Assembly (NCBI RefSeq): GCF_003967195.1
Contig: NZ_AP018725.1
Location: 2,294,001 to 2,358,000 of the forward strand
Length of the DNA stretch: 64,000 bases
Origin: Sulfuriflexus mobilis
GTDB lineage: Bacteria > Pseudomonadota > Gammaproteobacteria > AKS1
Direction of reading: 5' to 3'
The position numbers and the translations under genes are program-made. Position 1 is the stretch's first letter. Each line of letters starts with the position of its first letter. Of the stretch, positions 652 to 7,059 are shown piece after piece. The notes under the pieces were generated by a model that worked only from the letters and a program-made list of their open reading frames with translations, ran no database searches and was not told where the DNA came from.

Positions 652-742
652 ATATAACGGCTAGGCTGAGGGTTTTGTTACTGCAGAGTGTCGCGCAGCG
701 GAACGACGCGGTAACAAGTCCCTCTCTAGCCTTTTGTTAGGC
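652..742 (-). other. attC site of cassette g
   Basis: In gene orientation the site runs from an R'' core GCCTAAC (742-736) to an R' core GTTATAT (658-652), with imperfectly self-complementary DNA between them. Cassette g starts with TTAGGC (1280 leftward), the complement of its own R'', as expected for a cassette that circularises through these cores. Its length of 91 bp is within the attC range. Confidence 0.85.
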
Positions 743-1274: not shown

Positions 1275-1376
1275 GCCTAACGGTTGAGTTAAATAGCAAT
1301 TAACTGTGAGCAAAGCGAGCGGTTAACTGTCCAAGTTGCGCGTTTTTTGCGCAGCGGTTTAAGTGACTTGTTATGT
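1275..1376 (-). other. attC site of cassette f
   Basis: R'' core ACATAAC (1376-1370) and R' core GTTAGGC (1281-1275) flank 102 bp containing complementary arms (for example GTTAACTG/CAGTTAAT-like stretches). Cassette f begins TTATGT, complementary to its R''. The stop codon of the GNAT gene overlaps the R'' core, a usual compact cassette layout. Confidence 0.86.
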
Positions 1377-1816: not shown

Positions 1817-1879
1817 ACATAACGTTTTAGTTAAAAGGCGCGACGCTTTATCGCGTCATTTTTGAAAGACCTGTTAGCT
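1817..1879 (-). other. attC site of cassette e
   Basis: R'' core AGCTAAC (1879-1873) and R' core GTTATGT (1823-1817). The 63-bp site has a clear palindromic centre: GGCGCGACGC and a near complement around GCGTC with an A/T loop. Cassette e begins TTAGCT, the complement of its R''. Confidence 0.86.
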
Positions 1880-2294: not shown

Positions 2295-2395
2295 AGCTAA
2301 CGCCTGGTTAAGTTGCGGAGAGAACGGGCGAATTTTTTGCGTTCTTTGCAAAAAACGCGCGGGTTCTCGGAGTCAACTTGAACCTATTATTATGC
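2295..2395 (-). other. attC site of cassette d, with damaged R'' core
   Basis: R' core GTTAGCT (2301-2295) is intact. The R'' position reads GCATAAT (2395-2389), whereas cassette d begins TTATGC and therefore predicts GCATAAC: the terminal C of the invariant AAC has changed to T. The 101-bp site has long internal complementary arms (AAAAAACGC / GCGTTTTTT region). Confidence 0.8.
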
Positions 2396-2992
2396 CTTTT
2401 TCCCCTTGTTGAAGCCAAGGTCAGGCTTCTCTTTGCGGATTAGCTTATCCATGAATTTTTTGAACCTCCTCTGTCTGGTTTCAGGTTTCTTTGCAGATTC
2501 CAATCCATAAGCAATTGCGTAGCGATTGGATTTGGTTAGCGTCTCATAGAACTGTTTCGCCTTCGGCATGCTCTCAAGAGCGGCTAGAAAGTCCGCTGGA
2601 ACCTTCATCTCACTAGTGGTATAGGCGTTTTTCCAACGACCGTCCTCTTTCGCCGCACGAACATGCACAAGCCCCGGCTCCTTCACCCGTCCCTCAGTTA
2701 TCAAGCGATCGACATGTTCGGTATTCCTCTTTGACCAATTGCTTCGAGCTTTTCTCGGAGTAATCCGTTGAAGGTAGGCTTGGTCATCGAGTGACTTCTT
2801 GACACCGTCAATCCACCCCCAGCACAGCGACTCAATCACGACTTCGTTCCAGTTCACGCTCGGAATCCCAGATCCCTTTTTGAACATCTTGATCAAAAGT
2901 TCGCTTTCGGTGGCATGGTTCGCTTGCAGCCACTTACTCAGCTCTTTTGGTGACTTAAAGGTCATCGCTTTAGGTGCATCGGGTTTAGGCAT
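2390..2992 (-). CDS. YdeI/OmpD-associated family protein (cassette d)
   Basis: A 200-residue protein starting MPKPDAPKAMTFKSP. Family hallmarks are ESLCWGWIDGVKKSLDD, YLQRITPRKARSNWSKRN and a C-terminal basic tail ending in a Lys-rich stretch. Members are annotated as bacteriocin-protection or YdeI-like proteins; the molecular activity is not established. A longer frame from an ATG at 3013 is open, but that ATG is part of the attC core and the cassette has no room for a ribosome binding site before it. The start at 2992 has AAGAG about 10 bases upstream. The gene ends inside the attC R'' core. Confidence 0.82.
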   Translation of the reverse strand: MPKPDAPKAMTFKSPKELSKWLQANHATESELLIKMFKKGSGIPSVNWNEVVIESLCWGWIDGVKKSLDDQAYLQRITPRKARSNWSKRNTEHVDRLITEGRVKEPGLVHVRAAKEDGRWKNAYTTSEMKVPADFLAALESMPKAKQFYETLTKSNRYAIAYGLESAKKPETRQRRFKKFMDKLIRKEKPDLGFNKGKKA

Positions 2993-3033
2993 GAAATCAG
3001 ATTCTCTTGGCATAACGGTTGAGCTAAAAGACG

Positions 3034-3059
3034 TGAACTGGCACCACTTTTGTGGACAC
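3034..3059 (+). repeat. IS terminal inverted repeat, left in window
   Basis: Reads TGAACTGGCACCACTTTTGT and continues GGACAC. It pairs with the repeat at 4317-4342 with mismatches at positions 7, 18, 19 and 26. It lies just beyond the orfB stop. Confidence 0.88.
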
Positions 3060-3061
3060 TT

Positions 3062-3916
3062 TTACGCACACAGTTTTTCATAATTATCGGGAGATTGATA
3101 GCCTATACCTGAGTGTAATCGCTCTCGATTATAGAACTCTGTAAACTCTACAATATGCGCTACCGCCTCAATTTCATTTTCAAATAACTTATGATGGATA
3201 AGTTCTGCCTTCATCGTATGGAAGAAAGATTCCGCAAACGCATTATCCAATGGATTGCCTTTACGACTCATGCTGCGCACTAACCCAGCACCTTCAACCA
3301 TGTCACGGTATTCATGCGCCGCATATTCAATACCCTGGTCTGAATGGAACAGACAACCCGATTTCGGTGGATAGCGATGCAGCGCCATCCTTAATGCGCT
3401 TTTCGTTAACTCGGCATTACGTTTTCGGCTAAATGACCAACCCACGACTTTGCGGCTAAATAAATCCAGCACCACCGCATGATAAAACCAGCCCGTTTTT
3501 GTTTTGATATAAGTAAAATCACCGACCCATTGCTCACCCGCCTCAGTCGACTTAGCCAGTTTTGATAATTGATTGCCTGTTGAGGAATAAAAAACATGCT
3601 GTCCTGGCCGCCACGCATATAAACCCGTTGTAGAAGCTTTTATACCCATCTCACGCATCAGTCTGTTTATACGTCTGCGGCTACAGTGATAGCCTTTATG
3701 GCGAAGTTCTTGATGCAGTCGTGCCGCACCATAGGCGCGTCGATAGCCTTGATGCAGCTCCCTGATCAACGCTTTGAGTTGTTCATCATGCTGCCGATGG
3801 GCACTGACAGGGCGTTCACGCCAAGCATAGCAGCCACTGGTGGAGACATTAAATAACTCACAGAGTCGTCTAACTTTATATTGGTGCCGGTTCTTCTCGA
3901 TAAACGCAAAGATCAT
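3062..3916 (-). CDS. IS3-family transposase OrfB, DDE catalytic domain
   Basis: A 284-residue integrase-core protein. An N-terminal HTH_21-like region (YGAARLHQELRHKGY, RRINRLMREMGI) precedes the rve fold. The catalytic triad is visible as Asp in GDFTYIKT, Asp in FHSDQGIEY and Glu in NAFAESFFHTMKAE. The C-terminal YNRERLHSGIGYQSP box is typical of IS3. The start ATG overlaps the orfA stop in an ATGA arrangement, so OrfB could be made by coupling, or as an OrfAB fusion by -1 frameshifting on the A-rich stretch just before the orfA stop, as known for the family. It is full length. Confidence 0.94.
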   Translation of the reverse strand: MIFAFIEKNRHQYKVRRLCELFNVSTSGCYAWRERPVSAHRQHDEQLKALIRELHQGYRRAYGAARLHQELRHKGYHCSRRRINRLMREMGIKASTTGLYAWRPGQHVFYSSTGNQLSKLAKSTEAGEQWVGDFTYIKTKTGWFYHAVVLDLFSRKVVGWSFSRKRNAELTKSALRMALHRYPPKSGCLFHSDQGIEYAAHEYRDMVEGAGLVRSMSRKGNPLDNAFAESFFHTMKAELIHHKLFENEIEAVAHIVEFTEFYNRERLHSGIGYQSPDNYEKLCA

Positions 3917-4284
3917 CGTTTTGTTTTCTCGAAGAACCGCTGGGCTTTTTTTAATATATCAAGCTCCTCTTCCCGAGAGGCCAATGACCGCTCCAATGCC
4001 TTAATGCGTTTGTTGGCTTTTGTCAGTTCATCTTCTTTTGCCTTGGTCGGATCAGTACGTTTTTTGACTTTTTTAGGCGGGGCGGCGCTTTTCTTCATGT
4101 GTTTATTCTCACGTAGGGTGCCGTTCTTTAGCTCCATTCTCCACCGATACAACATGACCACATGGATCCCTAATGTGTCGGCAATATCCATGGCTGTAAC
4201 GTTTGGATGGCCAGCCAACCTAACGGCTTGCTCTTTGAACTCAAGTGTATATCGATCGTAATGACGCTTCCTGGTTTGTCCCAT
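3913..4284 (-). CDS. IS3-family transposase OrfA, DNA-binding subunit
   Basis: A 123-residue basic protein. Residues 10-50 form the HTH_Tnp_1 helix-turn-helix (YTLEFKEQAVRLA, MDIADTLGIHVVMLYRWR). The second half is a long Lys/Glu-rich coiled coil (NKRIKALERSLASREEELDI) ending LKKAQRFFEK, the usual IS3 OrfA leucine-zipper tail. It binds the element ends and pairs with OrfB. Confidence 0.93.
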   Translation of the reverse strand: MGQTRKRHYDRYTLEFKEQAVRLAGHPNVTAMDIADTLGIHVVMLYRWRMELKNGTLRENKHMKKSAAPPKKVKKRTDPTKAKEDELTKANKRIKALERSLASREEELDILKKAQRFFEKTKR

Positions 4285-4316
4285 TGCCTTTACCCTTTGA
4301 TGTTTTAGTCATATGA

Positions 4317-4342
4317 CTGTCCATCAAAGTGGTGCTAGTTCA
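4317..4342 (-). repeat. IS terminal inverted repeat, right in window
   Basis: The reverse complement begins TGAACTAGCACCACTTTGAT and continues GGACAG, matching 22 of 26 bases of the left repeat. It lies 32 bases upstream of the orfA start, so the transposase promoter probably overlaps or adjoins it. Confidence 0.88.
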
Positions 4343-4379
4343 GCGCGACGCTTTTTCGCGTCCCTGCTTGAGCGCCTTG

Positions 4380-5090
4380 TTAGGCATTTAATTTGTAGTA
4401 TTCGCCACATAACTCAAAACCTTTTTCGATACTTATATTTAAACCAGTAACCGCTTCTTCTAGTGCGGATGTTGTGCTTTCTAATAATTCGTGACCACGG
4501 TTAAATACTTTATCATTAGTCCAATTATCACCTTCCTTACCAAGTAGCCACAACTCTATATACCGCGGATAGTTTGGGTGAGATGATTCACATAAATACT
4601 CATATTTATTCATGGCATGGCTATGACTATTTGATAACTCACGAAATGCGTCTAAAACGTGGACCGGTGCTTCCGTTGCAGGGCTGCCCCATGGCATAAG
4701 AATTTCTATTTTTGCCCCCTCAAACACTTTGTTAACAACTTTTGCTAACGTTTCTATATTTTTATTAGCTTGATATTTCTCTAGCTTTATTACAAGAAAG
4801 TTAGTTACAGCCCAGATTTCATATACTAAACGAACCAATGGTGCGGCTGCAGATATATTGCCATGCTCCCATAACTGTAAAATTGCAGACGTTGTTTCTC
4901 TTGCTCTAATCCAAGAACCTAGTTGTAAAAAGTGAACAGCTCGATGTACATATGATTGGAGCTCTGTCGGTTGATTGGTCAATGGGCCCTTAGGAATATG
5001 AACTGGTGGCTCAGATACTTTATCTAGCAGCTCGCTAACATTTTCAATGCGGTTAATGTATCGACCAGTTTCAGTTTCCCAATTTCGCAT
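4380..5090 (-). CDS. Cassette c protein of unknown function
   Basis: A 236-residue soluble, mostly helical protein starting MRNWETETGRYINR. A longer frame reaches upstream to 5159 but runs through the attC of the previous cassette, so the ATG at 5090 is preferred. No catalytic motif was recognised. The centre contains ARETTSAILQLWEHGNISAA and PLVRLVYEIWAVTNFLV, reminiscent of the helical DUF5677-type proteins, but this is not certain. No Shine-Dalgarno sequence is visible. Its attC is disrupted by the IS, so the cassette can probably no longer be excised normally. Confidence 0.7.
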   Translation of the reverse strand: MRNWETETGRYINRIENVSELLDKVSEPPVHIPKGPLTNQPTELQSYVHRAVHFLQLGSWIRARETTSAILQLWEHGNISAAAPLVRLVYEIWAVTNFLVIKLEKYQANKNIETLAKVVNKVFEGAKIEILMPWGSPATEAPVHVLDAFRELSNSHSHAMNKYEYLCESSHPNYPRYIELWLLGKEGDNWTNDKVFNRGHELLESTTSALEEAVTGLNISIEKGFELCGEYYKLNA

Positions 5091-5102: not shown

Positions 5103-5177
5103 GCCTAACGTTAGAGTTGTGGGGGCGGATAAAGCGCACAGCGCTTTAGACGGTCCCACACGAACGACTTGTTATAA
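5103..5177 (-). other. attC site of cassette b
   Basis: R'' core TTATAAC (5177-5171) and R' core GTTAGGC (5109-5103), 75 bp. The centre is a strong palindrome: AAAGCGC-ACA-GCGCTTT at 5131-5147. Cassette b starts TTATAA, matching its R''. Confidence 0.88.
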
Positions 5178-6046: not shown

Positions 6047-7059
6047 ATGGAAGAGCCACGCCTGATGGACCAGGTGCTTTATGCCCTGCGCACGCATCGT
6101 TATAGCCTGAGAACTGAACAGTCTTATATTCAATGGATTAAGCGGTATATTTTCTTCCATAATAAGCGCCACCCTCGGGATATGGATGCTAGCCATATTG
6201 CGTCCTTTCTTTCTTATCTCGCTGTCGAAAAGCATGTAGCAGCTTCCACACAGAATCAAGCACTTTCTGCGCTGTTATTCCTATATAAGAAAGTGCTTAA
6301 CATTGAACCTGCCTGGGTAGACGATGTTATTCGTGCAAAACGCCCTGCACGCCTTCCTGTCGTACTGGATCGAGAAACAGTTACACTATTGCTAAGTCAC
6401 ATGCATGGTGTACACAGACTTATGGCCAAATTGTTGTACGGTACAGGTATGCGGCTTATGGAAGTAATACGTTTACGCGTCAAAGATGTCGATTTCTCCT
6501 ATTCACAAATATATATTCGTGGTGGCAAGGGAAATAAAGACCGCACCACTGTTCTCCCAACAACACTTATTGAACCGTTAAAGAAACAACTGGAGTATTC
6601 TCGTACGCTATATGATATTGATCGGATAGAAAATGCTCCAGGTGTTGAAATGCCTGACGCCTTGGGAAGAAAGTACCCCAATGCTGCAACCGAATGGGCA
6701 TGGCATTGGGTGTTCCCGTCTAAAAAACATTCTCAGGATCCAAGATCAAAGATTATTCGGCGTCACCATCTTTATGAAAGGAATCTCCAACGAGCAATTA
6801 AAAATGCTGCGAGATCGTCAGGTTTATCAACTATGGTTAATACGCATACATTACGTCATTCCTTTGCTACCCACCTACTGGAAGATGGTTACGATATTCG
6901 CACCGTGCAGGAACTGCTCGGTCATAAAGACGTCAAGACGACACAGATGGTCGCTCCCGGCGTCCTGCCTCACGCGACACTAGTACATCCTGTACGTCGT
7001 ATACCCATGTCATGGGCAAAGGTTGCAATGGTGTAAAAAGCCCGCTGGAACGACTTTAA
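6047..7059 (+). pseudogene. intI: Integron integrase IntI, disrupted before the catalytic tyrosine
   Basis: A tyrosine recombinase with the integron-specific extra segment (ALGRKYPNAATEWAWHWVFP, about residues 205-225) that separates IntI from XerCD. Catalytic residues are present up to the last box: Arg in GTGMRLMEVIRLRVKDVD, His and Arg in HTLRHSFATHLL, His in LLGHKD. After KTTQM (ATG at 6947-6949) a 50-bp insertion shifts the frame. The product then ends at 7036 without the YTHV tyrosine. Downstream, TAT ACC CAT GTC at 7000 resumes the ancestral frame and continues ...GKGCNGVKSPLERL to a stop at 7057-7059. As read, the 329-residue product lacks the nucleophile and should be inactive as a recombinase. 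Confidence 0.92.
6950..6999. repeat. 50-bp insertion in intI
   Basis: This segment separates the ATG of KTTQM from the TAT of YTHV and has no counterpart in the integron integrase family. It contains a small hairpin, GTACATCCTGTAC (6983-6995, GTAC arms), and resembles short palindromic repeats scattered in gammaproteobacterial genomes. No second copy was noticed in this window. Its size of 50 bp is not a multiple of three. Confidence 0.8.

Follow-up and report, generated by a model that had tools for sequence, protein, structure and literature searches.

What brings an insertion sequence (IS) into the middle of an integron recombination site, and is its position there an accident? The question is raised by a 64,000-nucleotide stretch of Sulfuriflexus mobilis DNA (contig NZ_AP018725.1, positions 2,294,001 to 2,358,000; hereafter the window), where a complete element of the IS3 family interrupts an integron attC site at 3034-4342. 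We propose that this element belongs to a DDE lineage of the IS3 family in which integron attC sites are selected by the transposase, a reading to which we assign a probability of roughly 0.86. Copies of this lineage lie in attC sites, at a preferred position, with a biased orientation and with short target duplications, and this behavior is nearly confined to one clade. The features on which the argument builds are the following (window coordinates):

3034-4342, minus strand, along the cassette array: IS3-family insertion sequence, 1309 bp, bounded by terminal repeats
4318-4342, minus strand: left terminal inverted repeat, upstream of orfA
3913-4284, minus strand: orfA, 123 amino acids, helix-turn-helix HTH_Tnp_1
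3945-3952, minus strand: A7G run, presumed from its sequence to be the -1 frameshift signal joining orfA and orfB
3062-3916, minus strand: orfB, 284 amino acids, DDE transposase with D133, D193 and E229 (DD35E)
3034-3058, minus strand: right terminal inverted repeat, downstream of orfB
4343-4385, minus strand: 5' half of the attC (43 nt), with the R'' core GCCTAAC at 4379-4385, L'' and the central hairpin
3010-3033, minus strand: 3' half of the attC (24 nt), with L' and the R' core GTTATGC at 3010-3016
4343-4345, read on the plus strand: triplet GCG, left-hand copy of an imperfect 3-bp target duplication
3031-3033, read on the plus strand: triplet ACG, right-hand copy of this duplication
4380-5090, minus strand: cassette gene with the split attC, ATG start at 5090, weak DUF5677 match below the Pfam cutoff

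The family assignment of the element was straightforward. Its terminal inverted repeats of 25 bp were 88% complementary and ended in TG..CA, as in the IS3 family. OrfB reached 302 bits against the NCBIfam IS3 model NF033516 (cutoff 160), as a DDE transposase of this family should, and OrfA aligned with the N-terminal part of the NCBIfam IS3 model, below the cutoff. Residues D133, D193 and E229 of OrfB were invariant in 9 aligned rows; their catalytic role would follow from the family pattern. The A7G run falls just within the 3' part of orfA, at a point where the orfB frame is also open, and the two genes overlap by 4 bases, which appears to be the two-frame arrangement with a slippery run that is typical of IS3 elements. 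Pfam (rve/HTH_21) and NCBIfam scans of the element's proteins listed no IS110 match and thus no sign of a DEDD transposase of the IS110/IS1111 family. By coordinates, the non-coding ends measure 58 bp (4285-4342) and 28 bp (3034-3061); in IS1111-attC elements, a long non-coding region supplies a guide RNA.

On the coding strand of the array, the R''L'' half (43 nt) is followed by the IS and then by the L'R' half (24 nt). The halves abut both ends of the IS, as an initial annotation of this DNA had read them, and add up to the 67 nt that it gave. R1, an attC covariance model in whose construction three of the six other attC sites of the window had served, matched the 5' half over 4311-4385 with 21 bits. 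The joined halves had an attC score of 12.4. The statement that they fold back into a normal attC was only weakly supported: a fold of 65 nt, from which one triplet had been removed, gave a minimum free energy structure that was not canonical, with z values of -1.4 and -0.9 for the two strands. A score of 12 was reached by 0.2% of random positions in non-integron DNA and by 4.1% in cassette arrays. The R'' and R' cores and the complementarity of L'' and L' that define an attC were present in the joined site. The GCG and ACG triplets beside the IS ends were found as annotated, and we read them as the two copies, mismatched at one base, of a 3-bp target duplication. Target duplications of the IS3 family range from 3 to 5 bp.

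If the location were a coincidence, as the same annotation had allowed, copies elsewhere should show no preference for attC. A whole-genome search retrieved a second full copy at 240 kb, some 2 Mb distant from the window and with 4 differences in 1309 positions, as well as a remnant of one end (36 bp) at 665 kb. The second copy was also found inside an attC, in another integron, and the remnant ended at an attC, so that all three occurrences in this genome (two full copies and one remnant) were at attC sites. The flanking attC sequences of the two full copies differed on both sides; the copies are therefore not one duplicated segment. Yet attC matches are scarce in the source genome: at least 29 at E ≤ 0.01 were counted in its 3.11 Mb (150 of 346 candidates scored), covering about 0.07% of the bases.

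Relatives were sought by protein and by DNA. Those with an OrfB identity of at least 69% came from metagenome-assembled genomes and from the chromosome and the plasmid of Candidatus Tenderia electrophaga; further, distant relatives showed 36-46% identity. A search of 72,556 plasmid records gave one close relative, and in the plasmid protein search 4,207 records matched at E ≤ 1e-40, one alone at 60% identity or more. With the loci themselves as plasmid queries, L077 led to Ca. Tenderia and pKAZ2, L160 to pKAZ2 only and L122, above 60% identity, to itself only, while L095 (E ≤ 1e-70) and L108 (E ≤ 1e-60) gave no match. Viral contigs contributed one and, in a second search, two distant relatives. 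Members of the lineage come from at least two classes of Pseudomonadota, and a conjugative IncC plasmid also carries one. As to scope, the orders around genomes G244, G181 and G083 contain 11, 3 and 20 genomes only; one relatives search gave 57 loci, 49 of them distant and left out of the site reading; of 44 genomes matched in one search, 24 loci (L130-L153) were newly examined; the partial loci L099 and L106 were left out; and the flanks of L130-L133 were read by eye after the automatic end-finder had given failed or doubtful ends.

The strongest evidence came from the subclade of the window element, subclade A, with 19 copies or ends, 11 of them two-sided and eight one-sided. Every two-sided copy (11/11) scored 10.9-17.4 as an attC spanning the junction, and every one-sided end (8/8) met an R' core preceded by C, 9-31 nt away. 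One-sided L003, L020, L021, L022 and L097 and the near-identical L002, L072 and L079 are not tree rows and were assigned to subclade A by similarity. The distance from the IS end to the GTT of R' had a mode of 17 nt (8 of 14 copies, range 9-20; this count excludes the Ca. Tenderia copies, L077 and L133), which corresponds to the inner border of the L' box. The IS pointed along the array in 17 of 19 copies, both exceptions being Tenderia copies. Duplications of 3 bp were exact in 5/11 copies and carried one mismatch in 3/11.

Subclades B and C gave a similar and weaker picture. Six of their ten two-sided copies scored 8.7-14.9. In 9 of 12 copies the IS lay 19-24 nt after the AAC of R'', at the inner border of L'', the ends being uncertain by a few bases; among the one-sided copies, L132 has its R'' at 23 nt. 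No R'' was found at the 19-24-nt position in L094, L130 and L131.

In an OrfB tree, the attC-inserted elements formed one clade (100/99), in a version with 57 rows as well as in one with 56, with L134 basal within it. The clade of the 56-row tree comprises 24 rows, 23 of them at attC or half-attC sites (L094 and L107, labelled half, are counted with attC), and L134 is the sole exception. The 32 remaining rows were labelled 'other'; 21 of these had scored junctions, all below 8. Not included in the 57-row tree were L101 (whose best match is the neighboring attC element), L140, L114 and L055 (short matches) and L116; the 56-row tree also omits L105, L023, L033, L034, L040 and L081, and contains L163 with 143 residues, as a TGA interrupts it. 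Nine clade members (L130-L134, L159-L161 and L163) had been found by protein before their flanks were read, and eight of them were at attC or half-attC sites. Both flanks could be scored for six of these blind-found members: four gave 8.7-14.0, and L131 and L134 gave 0. The A3 profile rows L094, L095, L107, L108 and L122 were chosen knowing or suspecting attC flanks and are thus not blind. A single change of attC targeting was seen in 42% of bootstrap trees, which is compatible with one origin of the trait and does not prove it.

As controls, random positions scored at least 10 in 1.8% of cases in non-integron window DNA (4,000 positions) and in 8.7% in arrays (up to 3,000 positions). No junction of other IS3 elements reached a score of 8 (0/27, L134 and L105 included); the highest control score was 7.7, for L104 and L105. 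Usable ends were available for 27 of 32 control loci (L113, L136, L138, L139 and L147 gave none), and one-sided copies were excluded from scoring. A second check, independent of the placement of IS ends, looked with R1 for a neighboring or spanning attC at E ≤ 0.1. It was positive for 20/31 clade loci, among them L001, L002, L016 and L077, which hold R1 training sites, vs 1/33 loci of other IS3 elements plus L134, the single match being a weak one at L109 (E 0.006). R1 misses many B and C sites, since 11 of the 31 clade loci gave no match at this threshold (L021, L076, L080, L094, L095, L107, L108, L130, L131, L159 and L160).

Several points weigh against targeting of attC by this lineage. The attC score and motif were chosen after the first copies had been seen, and the control ends were placed automatically. 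For eleven of the 32 'other' rows the junction could not be scored, and the label was given by default or by eye (L111, L112, L113, L115, L136, L138, L139, L141, L147, L150 and L153, with one flank, unclear ends or a reading by eye); R1 at E ≤ 0.1 found no attC in their loci. In subclade A, both flanks are available for 11 of 19 copies and the other eight rest on one flank; L002, L015 and L075 are without target duplication; and the Ca. Tenderia copies, L077 and L133 lie at the hairpin apex or close to it, 24-39 nt from the core instead of 17 nt. Four of the ten two-sided B/C copies, L094, L095, L107 and L131, score 0 as whole sites; L095, L107 and L131 show one attC half by eye, L094 is doubtful as an attC site, and the evidence for one-sided L130 is a single R'-like core at a distance of 48 nt. 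Basal in the clade, L134 lies outside attC; its OrfB is 43.5% identical to that of the window, closer than the full-length B/C rows. Lastly L105, an IS3 element that fell outside the attC clade in the 57-row tree and was left out of the 56-row tree for its long branch, lies by eye between attC halves on the Ca. Tenderia plasmid.

Two side observations concern the non-clade elements of Ca. Tenderia. L105 corresponds to L072:905-2350 (CP013100), a different IS3 element that seems to split an attC. L104, on the chromosome, sits in a short palindrome, with acgggttt on one side and aaacccgt on the other.

The most serious alternative is a general preference for GC-rich imperfect palindromes, like that of REP-targeting IS3 elements (REP, repetitive extragenic palindromic), with attC being simply the commonest such palindrome in these genomes. 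The Ca. Tenderia copies, which occur in both orientations and lie at the hairpin apex or close to it, would fit this view, and passages of PMC1525189 describe IS1397, ISKpn1 and ISPsy8 as IS3 elements that enter REP palindromes. However, insertion into a palindrome other than attC was seen in 0/19 subclade-A copies examined, the position is set relative to the R and L boxes, and the orientation follows the polarity of attC in 17/19. We thus consider a general palindrome preference unlikely. Much less credit goes to passive carriage of the IS within cassettes, by the integron integrase or by homologous recombination, instead of its own targeted transposition. The copies lacking a duplication could be accounted for in this way, but the different attC flanks of the two copies in the source genome and the exact duplications in 5/11 copies, around different attC sites, speak against it, as carriage would require one ancestral attC common to all copies. 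Moreover, subclade-A junctions lie 9-39 nt from the GTT core and not at the G^TT crossover, the point at which integrons recombine attC. Still less probable is random insertion with survivorship, in which IS elements are tolerated in arrays and accumulate in the intergenic attC sites: arrays may be dispensable and the non-clade L105 is also in an attC, but 8.7% of random array positions score at least 10 vs 11/11 subclade-A copies, the preferred 17-nt position and the orientation bias speak against it, none of 27 controls reached 8, and the non-clade Ca. Tenderia copies L100-L104 are not in attC by eye (four scored, best 7.7).

For attC selection by the transposase lineage itself, a mechanism may be sketched. 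Movement would most likely follow the usual copy-out/paste-in route of the IS3 family, with a DD35E OrfAB made by frameshifting, a circular intermediate and a staggered insertion that yields the 3-bp target duplication. The end is placed at a fixed spot beside an attC L box, mostly 17 nt before the GTT of R' in subclade A and 19-24 nt after the AAC of R'' in B and C, with the element usually oriented along the cassette array. The choice of target would probably come from the proteins, from the attC structure or from both. A protein-based choice is probable because a long non-coding region in which a guide could be encoded is absent from the element; OrfA, with its helix-turn-helix, and/or OrfB may read the arms of the attC as DNA. 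Such arm reading is favored by the preferred distance to the R and L boxes and by the polarity, whereas the apex insertions point to a role of the hairpin in some lineages. With moderate confidence, we favor a history in which attC targeting arose once and was kept, subclades switched arms, reading the 3' one in A and the 5' one in B and C, and arrays together with scattered attC clusters became the long-term home of a guide-less, protein-programmed lineage.

Entry into attC recalls the IS1111-attC group, which papers citing Tetu & Holmes 2008 and Post & Hall 2009 reportedly trace to these studies. Its members ISPa21, ISKpn4 and ISPst6 specifically enter cassette attC sites, according to excerpts of PMC11187229 and PMC11616780. 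The window lineage likewise enters the attC of gene cassettes and, judged by location, its insertion appears specific to attC as in this group. Unlike the IS1111-attC group, it consists of IS3 DDE elements that insert beside L boxes or near the apex and make 3-bp duplications; it looks like a DDE counterpart of that group. With IS1397, ISKpn1 and ISPsy8 it shares the IS3 family and a palindromic target, but it targets attC by core motifs and arms and not REP or bacterial interspersed mosaic elements. For IS1397 and ISKpn1, part of PMC1525189 ascribes the choice of REP palindromes to the transposase. In the Vibrio cholerae superintegron, excerpts of PMC11023631 place one IS3 copy in a cassette coding sequence and one in the last cassette; like the window IS these are IS3-family elements in a cassette array, and they differ in their sites. 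IS3 transposases made up 23% of array transposases in phyllosphere integrons in the portion of PMC11089894 available to us, in which no claim of attC targeting by them was found. Group IIC introns are likewise integron-associated mobile elements and, unlike the window IS, retroelements without a transposase; their association with integrons is described in part of PMC7923331. In the excerpts obtained from the open-access literature, attC targeting was ascribed to IS1111 elements and no attC-homing IS3 lineage was found; subscription papers and ISfinder lay outside the search, and priority is not certain. Group IIC introns, too, target attC.

If true, our reading adds a DDE lineage to the elements that home on integron recombination sites. 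The preferred point beside the L boxes suggests an attC-reading protein, whose specificity could be mapped between subclades that use opposite arms. By splitting attC, copies of the lineage may fix cassettes where they are and contribute to the freezing of arrays.

The remaining features of the window place the split site in its integron, whose integrase reads on the plus strand and whose cassettes run leftward on the minus strand. Besides the split site, R1 recognized six attC sites, 5/6 of which were also recovered by a script:

6047-7036, plus strand: integron integrase gene intI, its frame broken by an insert of about 50 nt (6950-6999) before the catalytic Tyr codon
5488-5559, minus strand: intact attC of the R1 training set, R1 81 bits, also recovered by script
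5103-5177, minus strand: intact attC of the R1 training set, R1 71 bits, also recovered by script
2390-3013, minus strand: next cassette, with a YdeI/OmdA-like gene
2295-2395, minus strand: attC, weak match (R1 21 bits, E 0.016)
1817-1879, minus strand: intact attC of the R1 training set, resembling the split site, R1 55 bits, also recovered by script
1275-1376, minus strand: attC, R1 26 bits, also recovered by script
652-742, minus strand: attC, R1 32 bits, also recovered by script

The integrase matched TIGR02249 over 2-297 of 315. That the cassette at 4380-5090 is no longer excisable, as the initial annotation expected, is plausible, given the 1.3 kb that interrupt its attC; for the local integrase the matter is moot, since the intI frame breaks just before the catalytic Tyr. 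A further expectation, that the IS might supply an outward promoter to downstream cassettes, did not hold up in a consensus scan, which found 0 sigma-70-like sites in 2950-4450 vs a mean of 2.7 in shuffles.

Elsewhere in the source genome, attC matches were scattered over many places, as in attC clusters lacking an integrase. The second integron, at G000:C1:236-244 kb (L154), which holds the second full IS copy, has several attC sites and its own broken integrase. There, a nearly identical insert of about 50 nt breaks the frame at the same spot (G000:C1:236857-236895, minus strand), while the two integrase genes are 65% identical in DNA. At up to 3 mismatches, the insert occurred in the source genome at those two integrase sites only. 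The idea that it is confined to integrases had to be rejected, as a similar copy lies outside intI in repeat-like DNA of genome G127; the insert looks like a dispersed repeat.
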